Origin: Clostridia bacterium
GTDB lineage: Bacteria > Bacillota > Clostridia > Christensenellales > Aristaeellaceae
Assembly: GCA_017430225.1 (NCBI GenBank)
Contig: JAFRNK010000071.1
Span: 1 to 32,328 of the forward strand
DNA: 32,328 nt
Reading direction: 5' to 3'
Shown here: positions 22,276-30,846 of the stretch, piece after piece
Layout of the letters: every line of letters begins with the position of its first letter
Numbering within the stretch: position 1 is the first letter of the stretch
The notes under the pieces: generated by a model
Told to the model about the DNA's origin: nothing
What the model saw: only the letters and a program-made list of their open reading frames with translations
The model's database searches: none
Position numbers and translations under genes: made by a program

Positions 22276-22925
22276 AGTGCTTTGTCGGCCGGCGGCTCGC
22301 CTTCCGCGTGCGGCAGGCTCCAGCGGTAGTGCGCGCTCAGCAGGCGGATGATCATCACGACCCCGAAGCCCGTCAGCATCGCGGCCGTCTGCCCGACGAC
22401 CGGCCACAGCGCGGCGCATAAAAGCGCGCCGGCCAGGGCCGCGCTCGCATATACGTGCTTGACAAAGATGTACGGTGTACGCCCTGCCATGATATCGCGC
22501 AGCACGCCCCCGCCCACGCCGGTGACGACGCCGACGAAGGTCAGCAGGAACAGGGATTCCGCATGGCCGAGCCCGTAAGCGACCTGCACGCCGCTGACAG
22601 TAAACAGGGACAGGCCCAGTGAATCCGACAGCTGCAGCAGCATCACGGTATGGCGGTGGTTGCCGAGCAGAAAGTGCCGCACCGGCTTTAGAAACACAAT
22701 CAGCGACACCCCGAGCGCCGTGAGCGCGTAGACCGGCTCATGAAAGGTGACCGGCGGGGTATTTCCCAGCAGCAAGTCGCGCACGACGCCGCCGCCGACC
22801 GCTGTCGTCAGGCCCAGGATGGCCACACCGAAAACGTCCATCCCCTTGCGGACGCCCGTCACGGCGCCGGAGACCGCGAACGCTGCCGTTCCGATCAGTT
22901 CCAGCGCCAGGATCAGTTCAGGCAT
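22272..22925 (-). CDS. TRIC/YicG-type (UPF0126) membrane protein, putative cation channel
   Basis: This 217-residue protein has seven hydrophobic helices built from two related halves. The repeated signature is G-G-G-V-V-R-D-L-L-L-G in the first half and G-G-G-V-L-R-D-I-M-A-G-R-T-P in the second. That is diagnostic for the bacterial TRIC-like/UPF0126 family (YicG, YadS), related to trimeric intracellular cation channels. Two copies of a GAVTGVRKGMDVFGV-like start are also visible. The ATG at 22925 comes one base after the stop of the GTPase-NYN gene, and the stop overlaps the exonuclease start. All three genes are therefore tightly coupled. Confidence 0.9.
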   Translation of the reverse strand: MPELILALELIGTAAFAVSGAVTGVRKGMDVFGVAILGLTTAVGGGVVRDLLLGNTPPVTFHEPVYALTALGVSLIVFLKPVRHFLLGNHRHTVMLLQLSDSLGLSLFTVSGVQVAYGLGHAESLFLLTFVGVVTGVGGGVLRDIMAGRTPYIFVKHVYASAALAGALLCAALWPVVGQTAAMLTGFGVVMIIRLLSAHYRWSLPHAEGEPPADKAL

Positions 22926-22926
22926 T

Positions 22927-25557
22927 TCAACTCTCCTTGTTTTTCAGCTTTTCCATCGCCGCACGCAGGGCGTCAGATACCGGATTCCCGTTGGCTTTGA
23001 GTGCGTTGCGCGCGAGGTAATCCATCAGTTCGCCTTCAGTCTGCTCGACTTCGTGGCGGAATTCGCGCGCCGAAATGCGCAGCGCGCCGCTGGCGAGGAT
23101 GATCAGCTGCTCCATCCCGTCCGAGGTCGCAACGCGCACGCGCCGCTTGTCGCGAAGCTCGTATGCTGCCTTCACGATGTAAGCGTCCGCCGTTTCGGCC
23201 TCTTTCGTATACACGATGTCCACATTCCCCCGCTTTTCCACAGACCCGCGCCCGCCGGCCACGCGATAAGCGTCGAAGACCAGGATCAGCTTCAGGTTCC
23301 GGACACCGTTGAAATCACACATCAGATCGATCAGCTGGTCGCGCGCCATGTCAAGGCTGAAACCGGCCAGCTCCTTGAGCTCGTCCCAAGCAAAAATGAT
23401 ATTGTACCCGTCCACCAGCAAGTACTCGTCCGGCGCTTCCGGGATGGTGACCCGCTCGGGCAGGGAAGCATCCGGCTTGCGCGGCAAAATGGATCTCGGC
23501 TTGATCGGGCCGTAAGTGCGCTCAAAAATCCGGAGGAGTTCCTTGTCCTCTTCCAGACTGTCCCTCGGCGGAGCGGCGCGCACAGGCGCTTCGCTTTCCG
23601 GCTGATCTGCGTCCGTTCCGCTCTCCGTGCCGTTCTGCAGATGCATGTATCTGGACGCTTCCCGCCAGGGAATCACTACGCCCGCGCCATGGCTGCAGAA
23701 AACGGAATCCGCAGGATTGTCCACGTCCCGTTCCGGGTCATAGCCGGAGGCTTCCACCAGGACCGCCTGATTCGCGCAGGGCTGGTAGCCCGCGTTTTCG
23801 AGCGCGACCCTGCCCTCGCCGTGGGTGTACATGGCCACCTGCCGGGCATAGTGCCTCGCCCGGGCGACGGGCGCCTGCCCGTCGATTACCGTGAGGCGGC
23901 TGTCGCTGTCCGCAATTTCCGCCGACCCGCCCATCTGGTTCAGGTCGTTCAGCGCGCGGCCCACACAGTCGTTCGGGACTTCCAGGCGGATATGGTACCA
24001 GGGCTCCAGCAGCACATTTTCCGCCTGCATCAGACCCTGGCGGATCGCGCGATAGGTCGCCTGGCGGAAATCACCGCCCTCGGTATGCTTGAGGTGCGCG
24101 CGGCCCGCCGTCAGGACGATCTTCACGTCCGTCAGCGGTGCGCCGACCAGCACGCCGGTATGCACGCGCTCCAGAATATGCGTCATGATCAGGCGCTGCC
24201 AGTTGAGTGCCAGGTCGTCCAGCATGCACTCGCTCGCCGCGGTCACGCCGCTGCCCCGCGGCCCGGGTTCCAGGCGCAGGTGTACTTCCGCGTAGTGGCG
24301 CAGGGGCTCGTAATGCCCGGCGCCGTCCACCGGCGCGGCGATCGTCTCGCGGTAGAGCACGCCGCCCTCCACGAATTCCACATCCAGCTGGTAGCGGTCA
24401 TGGAGCTGTCGGGCCAGGATCTCCAGCTGCACCTCGCCCATGATCCCGACCTGGATTCGCCGAAGCTGCGCGATCCAAGTGACCTGCAATTCCGGATCCT
24501 CCTCCTCGAGCTCCCGGAAGCACCTGAGCGCGCGCTGCTCGTCCGTGCCAGGCGCGAGGCGTACGCGGTAACGCAGAACCGGCGTCATGGCAGGCGTCGT
24601 ATGATGCCCGCCTTCGCCCCAGGTCTGGCCTGCCGCCGTATGCGCAGGGCCCAGCAGTGCTGCCAGCTCGCCGGCCGGCGCTTCGTCCGCCGGTTCATAC
24701 TTCGCGCCGCTGTACAGGCGGATCTGGCTCACCTTTTCGCCCGGTTCGCCGTTCACGCTGGGCAGCAGGTCACGCACCCGCAGTTTCCCGCCGGTGATGC
24801 GCACGAAGGTCAGCCGCGCGCCGGCGGCGTCCCGCGCGATCTTGTACACACGGGCGGAAAACGCCTCCGGACACCTGCGTTCCGGCAGCAGCCGGTCAAG
24901 CCCGTCCAGCAGGGCTTCCACGCCGTCACCGCGCAGAGCGGCGCCGAAATAGACCGGAAACGCCTTGCGTTCCGCAATGAGGCGGCTGACAGTCACATCG
25001 TCGATTCTTCCGGTCTCCAGCAGTTCCTCCAGTGCTTTTTCGTCCGTCAGCGCCAGGTCTTCCGCGGCATCGGGATCGTCAAGCGCGGTGCAGCCAGGGT
25101 TTAACTGCGCACGCAGCTCCCCGACCAGCCGCTTGCGGTCCGCGCCGGGCTGATCCATCTTATTCACAAAGATGAACACCGGAACGTCCGCGTTTTTGAG
25201 CAGCTTCCACAGCGTGCGCGTGTGGCTCTGCACACCGTCCGTAGCGCTGATGACCATGACCGCGGCGTCCATGACGCCGATCGCGCGCTCCGTCTCGCCC
25301 GAAAAGTCCACATGCCCCGGCGTATCCAGCAGGATCAGCGGGCGGCCCCGGAAGGAAATGCGCGCCTGCTTGGAGAATATGGTAATGCCGCGCTCCTTTT
25401 CCTGGACGTCCGTGTCTAGGAACGCATCGCCGTGATCGACACGGCCCTTGCGCCTGAGCGCGCCGGACACGTACAGAAGCTCTTCCGACAGCGTCGTCTT
25501 ACCCGCATCCACGTGGGCGACGAGCCCGATCACCGCGGGCGGTCTGTGGTCTGCCAC
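22927..25557 (-). CDS. TetM/EF-G-like translational GTPase fused to a C-terminal YacP/Rae1-type NYN ribonuclease domain
   Basis: This 876-residue protein is numbered from GTG 25557, which follows GAGGTGA. GTG 25566 is an alternative start. The GTPase domain has A-H-V-D-A-G-K-T-T (residues about 14-22), E-R-G-I-T-I, D-T-P-G-H-V-D-F and N-K-M-D. EF-G-type domains II-V follow to about residue 625. The domain IV loop corresponding to TetM's Y-S-P-V-S tip is short here (GRAHLKHTEGGDF), so tetracycline protection is not supported. After an acidic linker, residues about 710-850 match YacP/Rae1: L-L-V-D-G-Y-N-I-I (Asp716), L-V-F-D-A-Y (Asp762), Y-T-K-E-A-E-T-A-D (Glu788, Asp791) and V-A-T-S-D (Asp813). 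All the acidic positions expected of a PIN/NYN nuclease are present. B. subtilis Rae1 cuts mRNA in the ribosomal A site. The fusion suggests GTP-driven delivery of the nuclease, which is inference. Confidence 0.92.
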   Translation of the reverse strand: MADHRPPAVIGLVAHVDAGKTTLSEELLYVSGALRRKGRVDHGDAFLDTDVQEKERGITIFSKQARISFRGRPLILLDTPGHVDFSGETERAIGVMDAAVMVISATDGVQSHTRTLWKLLKNADVPVFIFVNKMDQPGADRKRLVGELRAQLNPGCTALDDPDAAEDLALTDEKALEELLETGRIDDVTVSRLIAERKAFPVYFGAALRGDGVEALLDGLDRLLPERRCPEAFSARVYKIARDAAGARLTFVRITGGKLRVRDLLPSVNGEPGEKVSQIRLYSGAKYEPADEAPAGELAALLGPAHTAAGQTWGEGGHHTTPAMTPVLRYRVRLAPGTDEQRALRCFRELEEEDPELQVTWIAQLRRIQVGIMGEVQLEILARQLHDRYQLDVEFVEGGVLYRETIAAPVDGAGHYEPLRHYAEVHLRLEPGPRGSGVTAASECMLDDLALNWQRLIMTHILERVHTGVLVGAPLTDVKIVLTAGRAHLKHTEGGDFRQATYRAIRQGLMQAENVLLEPWYHIRLEVPNDCVGRALNDLNQMGGSAEIADSDSRLTVIDGQAPVARARHYARQVAMYTHGEGRVALENAGYQPCANQAVLVEASGYDPERDVDNPADSVFCSHGAGVVIPWREASRYMHLQNGTESGTDADQPESEAPVRAAPPRDSLEEDKELLRIFERTYGPIKPRSILPRKPDASLPERVTIPEAPDEYLLVDGYNIIFAWDELKELAGFSLDMARDQLIDLMCDFNGVRNLKLILVFDAYRVAGGRGSVEKRGNVDIVYTKEAETADAYIVKAAYELRDKRRVRVATSDGMEQLIILASGALRISAREFRHEVEQTEGELMDYLARNALKANGNPVSDALRAAMEKLKNKES

Positions 25558-25590
25558 CTGCCTCACCTCACTTTCCGGGAGATTGAATCA

Positions 25591-26316
25591 ATGCAGCAAC
25601 ATCTGGATGAACTATGTCAAAGAGCAGCCGGACGCCGCCAGCCGCTCTTCAGCCGTTTCCTGAACCTGAGCGAGCAGAAGGAAGCGGAAATCGCCGCGCG
25701 CAAAGCGCAGGCGGGATATCTGTTGTTCGGCGGCGCCGAAGACTGTGAACGCCGGATGCTTGGCGTCGGGGAAGAAGCACCGGAGCCCGGGGACTTCCCC
25801 ATCACGTGCCTGCGCGTAACCCGCAGGAGCGCGCACTACGGCGAACCGCTGGAACACCGCGCGATTCTCGGCACAGTCATGGGCACCGGCATCGAGCGCG
25901 AACTGATCGGCGATATCGTACTCGCGGACGACGCCGCTTACGTCTTCTGCGTCAATACGATCGCGGACATGCTGTGCGCGGCGCTCACGCGTGTCGGCCG
26001 CACGGACACAGACTGCTGCGCCTGCGAGCCGCCTGCCGCAGCTTTGCGGAAACTGACACCTGTCAGGATCCAGGCCGCTTCGCCGCGCGTGGACGCCGTC
26101 GCCGCACACCTGTACCGCCTATCCCGCGGGGACATGCTGGAACTCATCCGCCAGGGCAAGGTCCAGGTCGACGACGCGCCGGTCACCAAGCCCGACCAGC
26201 TGCTAAAGCCCGGCCAGGTCCTCTCCGTCCGCGGTCATGGCCGCTCGAGGTACGAGGGCGAAGTGGGCATCAGCAAGAAGGGGAAGCTGTACCTGCAATT
26301 GAGTGTATACAGCTGA
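25591..26316 (+). CDS. ylmH: YlmH-type S4-domain RNA-binding protein
   Basis: This 241-residue cytoplasmic protein matches YlmH. FLNLSEQKEAEIA and LLFGGAEDCERRMLGV lie in the N-terminal domain. LEHRAILGTVMGTGIERELIGDIVL is the family signature. A C-terminal S4 domain follows (about residues 178-241; SRGDMLELIRQGKVQVDDAPVTKPDQLLKPGQVLSVRGHGR). YlmH binds ribosomal RNA, and in B. subtilis it has been linked to ribosome-associated quality control. ATG 25591 follows CCGGGAG (25575-25581). The frame is open far upstream on the opposite side of the GTPase-NYN gene, but that part is antisense. Only about 33 bases separate the two divergent starts. It is usually found near division genes (sepF/divIVA) in Firmicutes, which are not present here. 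Confidence 0.9.
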   Translation: MQQHLDELCQRAAGRRQPLFSRFLNLSEQKEAEIAARKAQAGYLLFGGAEDCERRMLGVGEEAPEPGDFPITCLRVTRRSAHYGEPLEHRAILGTVMGTGIERELIGDIVLADDAAYVFCVNTIADMLCAALTRVGRTDTDCCACEPPAAALRKLTPVRIQAASPRVDAVAAHLYRLSRGDMLELIRQGKVQVDDAPVTKPDQLLKPGQVLSVRGHGRSRYEGEVGISKKGKLYLQLSVYS

Positions 26317-27442: not shown

Positions 27443-27983
27443 TGAAACCGCTCTTGCTTTGCTCCGGCGTTCCTGCCTTAACTTCTGACTTCTCACTCAT
27501 AACTTCAGTCAGTTCCTTCCCCCACTTTTCCGTCAGCTTTTCCAGGCTCCAGGACGCGTTCAGGGGGCTGGTGGAGGGCAGGACGACCGGCGGGATACCG
27601 GTCTGAGGCAACTGGAGAAGACGATACAACCGTCCGGCTGTCTGACCGTTGCAAAGTACGCGTTCGATCCGTACCCGGGTCAGGATCACGGAGAGATCAG
27701 TGGGCACCGCGTTCGCGATGCTGCTGTCCTTCGAGCCCTCGATATCGCACTGTGCCGCCGCGTCCCACAGCGCCAGCTGATGTTCCAGCAGCAGGCGCTT
27801 TTTTGACGGGATATCCGTTGGTACCGGTTCACCGTACACCGCCGCCAGCACCCGCCAGAAGCGGTTCTGCGGATGGCCGTAGTAAAAGCCTTCCTCCCGG
27901 CTGCGCACCGACGGAAACGAGCCGAGGATCAGGATGCGCGAACGGTTGTCGAAGACCGGCTCGAAGGGATGCCGGAGCCTCAC
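27438..27983 (-). CDS. DNA-deoxyinosine / uracil-DNA glycosylase family protein
   Basis: This 181-residue protein belongs to the small UDG-like glycosylases of the hypoxanthine-DNA glycosylase type. Motif 1 is I-L-G-S-F-P-S-V-R-S, followed by YYGHPQNRFW. LCNGQTAGRLY lies in the middle, and motif 2 is L-P-S-T-S-P-L-N-A-S-W. These enzymes excise deaminated bases during base-excision repair. The family core ends at about residue 158 (LTEKWGKELTEV). The last 22 or so residues (M-S-E-K-S-E-V-K...) are encoded by repeat-like DNA and look like an acquired tail. ATG 27983 overlaps the stop of the methyltransferase gene by four bases (ATGA). Confidence 0.85.
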   Translation of the reverse strand: MRLRHPFEPVFDNRSRILILGSFPSVRSREEGFYYGHPQNRFWRVLAAVYGEPVPTDIPSKKRLLLEHQLALWDAAAQCDIEGSKDSSIANAVPTDLSVILTRVRIERVLCNGQTAGRLYRLLQLPQTGIPPVVLPSTSPLNASWSLEKLTEKWGKELTEVMSEKSEVKAGTPEQSKSGFT

Positions 27984-28774
27984 TTTTCCAGCCTCCGCCT
28001 AAGCACGTCGTAAGCCATGACTGCGCACGCCACCGCGGCGTTCAGGGATTCCGCCCCGCCGGGCATCGGCAGGCGGACCTTCTGCTGCGCCAGGGCCGCC
28101 GTTTCGGCTATCAGGCCCTGGCCTTCGTTGCCGATCAGCAGGCACGTCCTCTCCGCGTCTTCCGGCCGCTCATAAAACGGCGTGCCGTCCAGCGCGCCTG
28201 CCATCAGCCGGTAATCCCGCGCTTTCAGCATTTCCAGCGCCGAACGGAAGTCTTCCGTGACCCACACCGGCACACGGAAAACCGCACCCATAGTGGCCCG
28301 GAGCGTTTTCGGCGCGAACACATCAGCGCACTCGCAGCTCAGCAGTACGCCAGCGTTCCCGACGGCGTCCATAGTCCGCAGGACAGTGCCCACGTTGCCG
28401 GGGTCCTGTACGTTTTCGAGGGCAGCCACCAACGGCAGATCGGGCAGGCCGTCCGCCGACGGCATCCTGCACACGCACAGGACGCCCTGCGGCGTCTTCG
28501 TGTCCGTTACCGCCTCCAGCGCCCGCACAGACAGCATATGGACGGGAATGCCCGCCGTTTCGGCGTTCCGGATCAGCTCCGCATAGCGTCCGGCGGCATT
28601 CTCAGCGCAGATCAGAGCCGAAGCCCAGCCCGTTTTCAGGGCCTCTTCCGCCATGTGCTCGCCCTCTGCGAGGAAAGCCTGCGCCTCAGCACGCGCTTTG
28701 CGAGAATGGTTCAGTGTGCGCCAGCCCTGAACCATCGGATTGTGCGGGCTGGTGATAACAGTCAGCGCGCTCAT
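27980..28774 (-). CDS. SpoU/TrmH-family RNA 2'-O-methyltransferase
   Basis: This 264-residue protein has an N-terminal substrate-binding domain (ITSPHNPMVQGWRTLNHSRKARAEAQAFLAEGEHMAEEAL, typical of TrmH/RlmB-like proteins). The SPOUT catalytic domain follows. Motif 1 is L-E-N-V-Q-D-P-G-N-V-G-T-V-L-R-T, motif 2 is L-L-I-G-N-E-G-Q-G-L, and motif 3 is V-R-L-P-M-P-G-G-A-E-S-L-N-A-A-V-A. These build the trefoil knot that binds S-adenosylmethionine. It methylates a ribose 2'-OH in rRNA or tRNA, and the exact site is not deducible. Both ends overlap neighbours by ATGA, giving strict translational coupling with the 691-residue protein upstream and the glycosylase downstream. Confidence 0.92.
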   Translation of the reverse strand: MSALTVITSPHNPMVQGWRTLNHSRKARAEAQAFLAEGEHMAEEALKTGWASALICAENAAGRYAELIRNAETAGIPVHMLSVRALEAVTDTKTPQGVLCVCRMPSADGLPDLPLVAALENVQDPGNVGTVLRTMDAVGNAGVLLSCECADVFAPKTLRATMGAVFRVPVWVTEDFRSALEMLKARDYRLMAGALDGTPFYERPEDAERTCLLIGNEGQGLIAETAALAQQKVRLPMPGGAESLNAAVACAVMAYDVLRRRLEK

Positions 28775-30846
28775 TTGAGCCCCAGCGCGGCGCGGGTCAG
28801 AGGCATCGCTTTGGAAATCTCTGACAGGAAGCCCGTCTTCCTGCCGCTCTTCAGGATACCGGGCACTATATAGATCAGGACAGCCCGGTCCAGCGCGGCG
28901 GTAATACCGCCCTCCATCAGATTCTGCGCCGCTTCCGCGAAAGCGGTCATGCTGCGGATCATATACAGCGGCAGAACGATGCTCTGCTGGACGCAGAGTT
29001 TCCTTATATGCACGACCACATCCAGGGCCGCCTGGCTCAGGGGCGTGCGCGCCTGGTTGATTTTTTCTTTCAGCAGGTTTTTATCGACCGCCGGGCAGGC
29101 CGCCGGGATCCCGGGCAGGAGACTGCTCTGGCACAGCCTGATTTCCGGCAGGTACTGCTCGATCTCATCAATGTAACCCGGTACATAGATCTTCGTGAAA
29201 TCGTCTGAAGGCATAATCGTCGGCCACTGGTCGTTGCAGACCAGGAACAGCGCCGCGGAGCCGCCGCGCATCACGCTCATTTCGGCTTCGCCGTTGTACG
29301 CTTTCCCGCCCAGCGCCCGGGCCAGCGCCTCAGCCGCGTCCCGGCTGTCCGCCTCGCTCTGGGCGCGTATCATCACGCCCTCTTTGCCGCAAAACGCGTA
29401 GGCAAGCAGCAGAGAAAGCGCTTCGTTCTGATCGCATTCGAAGCCTGCCGTGCGCAGACTCTCCATGATGCGCCGGGCCACGGTCATGATCGGCGCGTCT
29501 TCTTCCGCTTCGCCGGGCCATACCTTCGGATGAAGGCCGAAGAACTCTTCATAGCGTGCCCGGTCGCGGATCAACTCTGCTTCCTGCTGCTTGATTTCCT
29601 GCAGCGCCGCCTTCGCCGCTTCCGTTTCCTCTTTCAGCGCGTCCAGTTCCTGGCGTTCGCTCTTGACCAGCCCGGCCACCAGCGTTTCGCGGTACTGCGC
29701 TTCCTGGGCTTTGGCCTGGTTCAGGTTCATCACCGTCATCAGGCGCTCGGCTTCCGTATCCTGCAGCTGCACCTTAAGCGCCGCCAGTACGGGATCTTTC
29801 GTGCCGCCCAGCGCTTTCGCAAACTGCTCGCGCGCGCCGGGCAGGCTGAGAATCTGCTCCGCCAGCTTCTCCCGGCTGCCAGCCTGCGTCCATTCGTTTT
29901 TCATCAGTTCGGCAAACGGCGGTACTGGCGCAGCGACTTCAGTGACCGGAGTCTGCTTGCGTTCGTCCTGTTTGCGATCCTGCTTTTTCTTTTCCGAGCG
30001 TTTTTCCGGCTTTTCTGCCGTGCGGCGGCTGCTTTCTACCGCCTGCGCCAGGCTATTGCAGCGCTTGACAGGCTGCTCGGTTTCCACCTGAGCGTAATAC
30101 AGCGGCGTCCCCGCATCATCGGGGATCAGCACGTCCTTGGGCTTTTCGTTCTCGGGGTTCTCCGCTTCCTGAACCAGGCGCAGCATCTGCTTGTCCAGCG
30201 CTTTGATCTGGTCCAGCGCGGTCATCGCGCCGGTCACCGCAGGTGCTTCTTCAGCCGGCGTTTCAGCAGGCACTTCTGGCGCGCTTTCCTCCGTCGTTTC
30301 AGCGATCGGCCAGTAGAACAGGCGCACAGCTCCGTCCGGCAGCGTCACAGAAAAGATGCGAGGATCGTCCGGCGGCAGCTGGCGCGCGTCCTTCAGGTCG
30401 TGCCCGGTCTGACGGTCCACCGGGCCGTGGATTTTGCCGCCCACCCGGGCATAAGCACAGGCGGTGACCGCGCGGGCAAGCATGCTCTCGGGGATCACTT
30501 CGTAAAACAACTGCTCCGGCAGCGCTTCGACCGCGTTGGAATACACGATATAGCGGTTCTTCTCGCCTTTGGCAGCGGAATAATTCTTGTTCTGCTTGAA
30601 CTTGTCCGTGTGCGACCCAGTCAGCGTCAGCAGGCAGAAGCTGCCCAGCGTGCGCAGCCTTTCCTTGCAGCTGCGCTGCTCCGACTTGTCCGGTACGACA
30701 CGCACATAACCTTCGTCACGCCATTCTTCGATCTCGGCAAGCGTAAAAGGGCCGGTCTCGCGTAGGAGCGGACGTACCCGAAAATGGCCCAGCTTCTGGT
30801 TATCCTCCTCCAGCCAGGCCAGAACCAGATGATTGATAATATCCAT
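28771..30846 (-). CDS. Unrecognised 691-residue coiled-coil protein
   Basis: I do not recognise a family. Residues 1-180 form a globular N-terminal region. An acidic Pro/Ala-rich linker (about 183-206) follows, then a helical stretch and a strongly basic Lys/Arg/Gln segment (about 274-298). A predicted coiled coil (about 355-435, rich in Gln, Glu and Ala) comes next. A C-terminal domain (about 450-691) has hydrophobic strands such as AALFLVCNDQW and alternates like a degenerate P-loop or AAA fold, but no Walker A motif is visible. There is no signal peptide or membrane helix. Only a weak CCTTT-complement site (AAAGG) lies about 13 bases before ATG 30846. Its stop overlaps the methyltransferase start (ATGA), so a role linked to RNA modification or DNA repair is possible. 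Confidence 0.8.
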   Translation of the reverse strand: MDIINHLVLAWLEEDNQKLGHFRVRPLLRETGPFTLAEIEEWRDEGYVRVVPDKSEQRSCKERLRTLGSFCLLTLTGSHTDKFKQNKNYSAAKGEKNRYIVYSNAVEALPEQLFYEVIPESMLARAVTACAYARVGGKIHGPVDRQTGHDLKDARQLPPDDPRIFSVTLPDGAVRLFYWPIAETTEESAPEVPAETPAEEAPAVTGAMTALDQIKALDKQMLRLVQEAENPENEKPKDVLIPDDAGTPLYYAQVETEQPVKRCNSLAQAVESSRRTAEKPEKRSEKKKQDRKQDERKQTPVTEVAAPVPPFAELMKNEWTQAGSREKLAEQILSLPGAREQFAKALGGTKDPVLAALKVQLQDTEAERLMTVMNLNQAKAQEAQYRETLVAGLVKSERQELDALKEETEAAKAALQEIKQQEAELIRDRARYEEFFGLHPKVWPGEAEEDAPIMTVARRIMESLRTAGFECDQNEALSLLLAYAFCGKEGVMIRAQSEADSRDAAEALARALGGKAYNGEAEMSVMRGGSAALFLVCNDQWPTIMPSDDFTKIYVPGYIDEIEQYLPEIRLCQSSLLPGIPAACPAVDKNLLKEKINQARTPLSQAALDVVVHIRKLCVQQSIVLPLYMIRSMTAFAEAAQNLMEGGITAALDRAVLIYIVPGILKSGRKTGFLSEISKAMPLTRAALGLK

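Follow-up and report, generated by a model that had tools for sequence, protein, structure and literature searches.

A translational GTPase fused to a YacP/Rae1-type nuclease across much of the Clostridia, a candidate A-site mRNA cleavage factor

Can a translational GTPase carry a nuclease to the A site of stalled ribosomes? This testable question is posed by a gene on contig JAFRNK010000071.1 of a Clostridia bacterium (assembly GCA_017430225.1; order Christensenellales, family Aristaeellaceae), of which a stretch of 32,328 nucleotides, here called the window, was analyzed. The gene occupies positions 22927..25566 on the minus strand and forms one open frame of 879 amino acids, with a GTG start at 25566 (or at the in-frame GTG at 25557) and a stop at 22927-22929. 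A preliminary description of this DNA had placed it at 22927..25557; the stop end was correct, while the start was set too far in, as the frame reaches 25566. Because 25557 is the in-frame GTG three codons inside, the residue numbers of that description are 3 lower than those used here.

Pfam domain identification recovered all five EF-G-like domains over aa 13-600, all on the minus strand, namely the G domain (GTP_EFTU, aa 13-228, 24883..25530), with the P-loop, DTPGH and NKMD motifs intact, domain II (EF-G_D2, aa 236-315, 24622..24861), domain III (EFG_III, aa 328-398, 24373..24585; 24.9 bits, just below the cut-off of 27), domain IV (EFG_IV, aa 402-515, 24022..24363) and domain V (EFG_C, aa 518-600, 23767..24015). 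In an alignment, the tip of domain IV carries the motifs GHYEPLRH (aa 417-424) and HLKHTEGGDFR (aa 491-501). A conserved tail with a DSVFCSHGAG motif (aa 601-645, 23632..23766, minus strand) runs to the end point of unfused relatives, and is followed by a variable linker (aa 646-709, 23440..23631, minus strand) with a short conserved motif around I680 and G686. With the boundaries chosen in this analysis, the linker measures 59-111 residues in fused proteins, with a median of 75. The YacP/Rae1 NYN nuclease domain (aa 716-869, 22960..23421, minus strand) scores 154.2 bits against the Pfam NYN_YacP cut-off of 24.6, and the match is complete, covering profile positions 1-155 of 166. Both the N-terminal G motifs with EF-G-like domains and the fusion to a YacP/Rae1 NYN domain in one frame were thereby borne out, the latter also by 107 further fetched loci that have both parts.

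The genome behind the window is an assembly of 131 contigs, 82% complete, and this fragmentation is what would favor an artefact of assembly or frame that joined two separate genes. Against it, every one of the 20 fused relatives fetched from the order aligns over its full length (39-56% identity), frames of the same kind of length (885-904 aa) occur in the one-contig genomes G790, G896 and G1041, and the named loci described below are fused in 80 of 80 cases among the matches listed. No sign of a frameshift or misjoin was thus seen, and the artefact, refuted by the relatives, keeps a practically negligible probability. Together with the window, the fetched loci make up 108 aligned rows with 106 distinct sequences, two named-genome contigs being identical to two of the order set; one row cut by a contig end (L107) was left out of some sets.

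By profile and tree, the GTPase half belongs to a distinct EF-G/RPP-like clade, here called clade A. Within the order, a clade-A profile gave 679-1029 bits for clade A, at most 522 bits for other RPP-like proteins and at most 394 bits for EF-G. The best full-length family model for the window protein was the NCBI model tet_protect with 388.8 bits, and the protein misses the tetracycline-protection cut-offs (NF012153, 388.8 versus 775 bits; NF033148, 262 versus 1100 bits) as well as the EF-G cut-off (TIGR00484, 264.6 versus 659.4 bits). Two unfused clade-A relatives reached 394 and 410 bits on the NCBI resistance model; two true protection proteins from this order scored 819 and 824 bits there and passed both cut-offs. 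Domain IV is the most conserved part of 21 fused proteins, with 37 of 114 positions invariant; the G domain has 50 of 216. The clade-A tip, GH[FY]EPLRH plus HLKHTEGGDFR, is absent from the rows compared with it (two true RPP, three RPP-like and one EF-G; EF-G row L002, in the wrong frame, was excluded). The Y-S-P-V-S tip loop, seen in the true protection proteins L110 and L111, is replaced by HLKHTEGGDFR in the window, in agreement with its reported absence; the accompanying view that drug protection is unlikely gains from scores far below the resistance cut-offs and from this near-invariant tip.

Public labels on members of the family read either 'translation factor GTPase family protein' or 'TetM/TetW/TetO/TetS family tetracycline resistance ribosomal protection protein'. 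The latter label is, on these sequence comparisons, probably wrong for family members in gut genomes, where it could inflate resistance-gene counts. Two other EFG_IV proteins, with frames of 699 and 713 aa, are encoded in the window's genome. Further RPP-like GTPases of the order (L109, L112 and L113) scored 476-537 bits on the NCBI resistance model and have yet another domain-IV tip. A defence function was also considered and set aside, as PADLOC gave LeoA alone, with an E value of 1.5e-4 over the GTPase part.

The fusion is widespread. Among 297 genomes sampled from the order, 58 have a YacP domain, exactly one each, located in a frame of at least 756 aa in 22 and in a frame of at most 440 aa in 36. 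Scanning of named genomes matched at least 80 loci and, among the matches listed, all 80 of 80 are fused, including those in Oscillibacter, Flavonifractor, Intestinimonas, Lawsonibacter, Gemmiger and Ruminococcus flavefaciens, but also in Monoglobus, Mordavella, Lachnoclostridium, Robinsoniella, Herbinix and others. In the class sample of 391 genomes, 158 contain the GTPase family at an E value of 1e-165 or better, and 156 remain after removal of G438 and G626 for weak clade-A scores; frames of at least 800 aa were counted by hand in 124 of 148 clade-A genomes among the matches listed. Matches were found in 30 of 398 genomes of the phylum sample. One genome that is 61% complete (G424) has two fused-length frames.

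A mobile origin was looked for in IMG/VR. None of its 49 matching loci extends past query residue 647, so that none includes the NYN part, and three of them are close unfused GTPases (L245, L246 and L270). Two records named 'Bacteriophage sp.' from human faeces, both devoid of annotation (MT835563.1 and MT835514.1), match 95-96% of the fused protein and may be bacterial contigs. Of 38 plasmid records with a match, 33 are Ligilactobacillus plasmids, including H4-H15, with an unfused clade-A GTPase. Some of the records label it as Tet protection, which again seems to be an error, and another uses 'translation factor GTPase family protein'.

Turning to the nuclease half, a profile of 20 fused NYN domains found B. 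subtilis YacP (5mq8 and 5mq9) in PDB at an E value of 3e-44, and no further PDB sequence up to E 0.1. The acidic active-site positions are kept, as had been claimed, and correspond in frame numbering to D719, D765, E791/D794 and D816. D719 occurs in 108 of 108 fused rows (106 distinct), D765 and D794 each in 107, the exception being L107, cut by the contig end, and D816 in 106, with a gap in L107 and Tyr in L170. Counted over the 106 distinct rows, each catalytic Asp is kept in 104-106, and all are present in the window. Residue 791 is Glu in 92 fused rows and Gln in 14. At residue 798 (bases 23173-23175, minus strand), Glu in 106 of 108 rows, the window alone has Val, and its copy may therefore be weakened or hold a sequence error. 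Where 37 stand-alone YacP rows are at least 85% conserved, the residue is retained in at least 65% of 48 fused rows, and for the majority of these positions in more than 90%, with the exception of one Leu near the end. The mean net charge of the NYN domain is -3.6 in fused versus -0.7 in stand-alone proteins, with overlapping ranges. Compared with its nearest named relative among the matches listed (L114, 83% identical overall), the window gave dN/dS values of 0.107 for the NYN domain, 0.166 for the linker and 0.069-0.167 for the other parts, indicating that the fused protein is under purifying selection.

The two halves also tend to keep company when apart. Once the fused genomes of the order are set aside, unfused clade A is accompanied by a stand-alone YacP in 21 of 23 genomes, the two exceptions being G173 (87% complete) and G209 (80% complete), while a stand-alone YacP occurs in 15 of 252 genomes without clade A (Fisher p 8e-20, from raw counts that ignore kinship). 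A search of 15 YacP-negative genomes gave no match at clade-A level. A strict rule of clade A only with YacP breaks down in the class, where 8 of 156 clade-A genomes (G324, G329, G356, G371, G422, G472, G495 and G615) yielded no YacP; the GTPase therefore has its own use in these, or the genomes are incomplete. Outside the order, unfused clade A was counted by hand, among the matches listed, 13 times with and 7 times without YacP, which is not clearly above the 101 of 235 genomes that have YacP without clade A; this class count omits G345, G374, G511 and G621, whose short frames are possibly broken fusions. In the window's genome (82% complete), the fused copy is the only YacP detected, in line with the expectation that fused genomes should lack a stand-alone yacP. 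The expectation held for most fused genomes, a second YacP being rare, and failed in G611. Five class genomes had two YacP hits, and G611 alone truly has both forms; the second hits in G427, G489 and G528 were under the cut-off and were rejected.

A quick GTPase tree of a chosen subset (86 rows, i.e. 49 fused, 32 unfused and 5 outgroup) needs two changes of the fused label, and shows one fused clade nested among unfused proteins. Within the fused clade lies a single unfused row, L075, from a genome (G065) with a separate YacP. The NYN tree, with 48 fused and 37 stand-alone domains, needs three changes, two of which are forced by well-supported branches. The topologies suggest one old fusion followed by at least one later separation, a history that fits both trees and falls short of proof.

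The commonest neighbor of the fused gene in the order is ylmH, which belongs to ribosome quality control (RQC) and was found at 8 of 21 loci; next come a shadow frame of that region, at 4 loci, and a cluster at 3 loci. In the window, the ylmH-like gene (YlmH_RBD and S4 domains; 25591..26316, plus strand) is divergent, its ATG, as read, lying about 25 bases from the fused GTG, and it is a probable functional neighbor that encodes a separate protein. The 70 genomes from the window's family include 19 with a GTPase frame of at least 800 aa. Of these 19, 14 yielded a ylmH, which lies next to the GTPase gene in 6 genomes from four genera. Another 22 have shorter frames; 20 of them yielded a ylmH, in no case adjacent (6/14 fused versus 0/20 unfused, Fisher p 0.002, from hand-read counts that ignore kinship). 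All six adjacencies (the window, L036 and four more) were confirmed in the DNA, and broken contigs could hide others. The orientation varies, ylmH being divergent in the window's genus and in G1097, upstream on the same strand in G167, downstream on the same strand in G214, G295, G203, G061, G081 and G139, and convergent in G1072. Among 41 unfused loci, some genomes counting twice, ylmH was found at one (G329, divergent at 254 bases). Among the matches listed, 56 named fused loci have flanks of 1.2 kb or more on each side, and of these only L114, the window's closest kin, has ylmH beside it; the adjacency was seen in 0 of 6 other fused loci and 0 of 20 stand-alone yacP loci. A search for RqcH in 20 fused genomes succeeded in 19; the exception was the incomplete genome from which the window comes. 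Adjacency to ylmH may provide an indirect link of the fused gene to stalled ribosomes, in part of one order.

A second contrast concerns a SpoU-type methylase gene. Among the stretches fetched, all 20 with a stand-alone yacP contain it, as opposed to 3 of the 88 with the fusion. The window has one at 27983-28774, two genes past ylmH. A conserved operon around the fused gene was looked for across the class, and none was found.

From the anatomy, conservation and gene context, which can be read from the sequence, we infer a delivery mechanism. In the reading that we prefer, and consider about evenly poised between right and wrong, the fused protein is a one-polypeptide chromosomal translation factor, the Rae1 of its lineage, acting as a GTPase-delivered A-site nuclease for stalled ribosomes. 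EF-G and TetM likewise place their domain IV in the A site. In paused ribosomes whose A site is empty, the GTPase part would enter that site and the factor site. There the clade-A domain-IV tip would probe the decoding region, and the nuclease might thereby reach the A-site mRNA and cut it, as proposed for Rae1 in B. subtilis. GTP hydrolysis would either time the cut or only release the factor. A single site may have to serve both domain IV and the nuclease, which would then alternate there, as the long linker would permit. The ribosome, left on a truncated message, could then pass to rescue and RqcH/YlmH quality control. In the published text as far as available, YlmH is described as able to act in RQC and Rae1 is linked to mRNA cleavage on ribosomes; the main text of the paper on YlmH in RQC contains neither the term Rae1 nor YacP. 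A fuller version, which we put forward only tentatively, is GTP-driven surveillance, in which the GTPase with its private tip would recognize stalls, put the Rae1 nuclease on the A-site codon and hand the products to YlmH/RqcH, and in which the unfused GTPase would work in trans with stand-alone Rae1 in sister lineages.

The main rival to delivery is that the halves are uncoupled, i.e. that two jobs share one chain and the link merely ties their expression or raises local concentration. The GTPase would then have its own role, e.g. clearing the A site, as may be the case for its unfused form, and the nuclease would act alone like B. subtilis Rae1. Such an arrangement would suit a linker as long and variable as this one, the wide occurrence of unfused clade A with YacP absent from 8 class genomes, and the unfused form inside the fused clade, in a genome with a separate YacP. 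It fits less well with a fusion kept across the class, in the proportion of long frames given above for the matches listed, with few separations. We regard the uncoupled arrangement as a serious possibility, though a doubtful one.

Two other functions are far less probable, and about equally so. The protein might be a tetracycline-protection protein with an added RNase, as suggested by Atkinson 2015; tet_protect is its best full-length model and some members carry the TetM/TetW/TetO/TetS label, but the score is half of the 775-bit cut-off, which the two true protection proteins of the order exceed, the TetM tip loop is swapped for a different near-invariant tip, profile and tree set the clade apart, and the divergent gene so close by in the window leaves scant room for a leader. 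Just as improbable is an enzyme of ribosomal or transfer RNA processing, a function formerly suggested for NYN/YacP proteins (cited in the available part of Atkinson 2015, PMC4342817). The SpoU-type gene in every stand-alone yacP stretch fetched speaks for it, while its rarity in the fused stretches speaks against it, and Rae1 has since been tied, in the accounts available, to mRNA cleavage on ribosomes.

How does the preferred reading, a GTPase-delivered nuclease, relate to known systems? In its section 9, Atkinson 2015 (PMC4342817) describes ten Clostridiales whose Tet proteins bear a YacP-like NYN domain, and suggests a part in drug resistance for these proteins. The architecture has thus been in print since 2015 and the fusion is no discovery. 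By description, those proteins have the same architecture and, as far as hosts are named there, the same host group; the excerpted account places the NYN fusions within Tet, whereas here the GTPase forms its own clade apart from true protection proteins. No experimental study of the fusion was found in the open-access literature searched, a scope outside which the main Rae1 papers lie. Condon 2018 is said to deal with Rae1 distribution, and may already mention the fusion. This analysis adds the ylmH neighborhood, the co-occurrence in the order and what looks like a single origin of the fusion.

TetM, TetO and TetW share domains I-V with the fused GTPase, and their binding site on the ribosome is probably the same; they differ in that the fused GTPase has another domain-IV tip and tail and lies below the family cut-offs. 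EF-G is likewise similar in domains I-V, but the fused GTPase scores far under the EF-G cut-off. Rae1/YacP of B. subtilis resembles the fused nuclease in its NYN domain, its catalytic Asp positions and, judging by the order sample, its single copy per genome. It stands alone beside the SpoU-type yacO in B. subtilis (PMC6613710, in the part available), unlike the fused form, which sits on a GTPase and away from such a gene. In the part available, a 2025 review (PMC12320835) regards the known set of nucleases acting on ribosome-bound mRNA as incomplete. Since Rae1 is fused to a translational GTPase across much of the Clostridia, stand-alone Rae1 is not the sole plan; if delivery is true, the Clostridia would have a GTPase-run counterpart of mRNA cleavage on stalled or collided ribosomes.

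Some minor observations remain. The window gave no Rfam match, and a consensus search of 22700-25900 gave no sigma-70-like promoter. A 691-aa frame at 28774-30846 on the minus strand has no Pfam match. The fused frame of G255 (L042:777-3770, minus strand) extends about 110 residues past the usual end. Finally, one neighbor cluster, which we take to be TrmO/TsaA, lies beside the fused gene at 8 of 80 named loci among the matches listed (L115, L117, L119, L124, L143, L146, L171 and L190).
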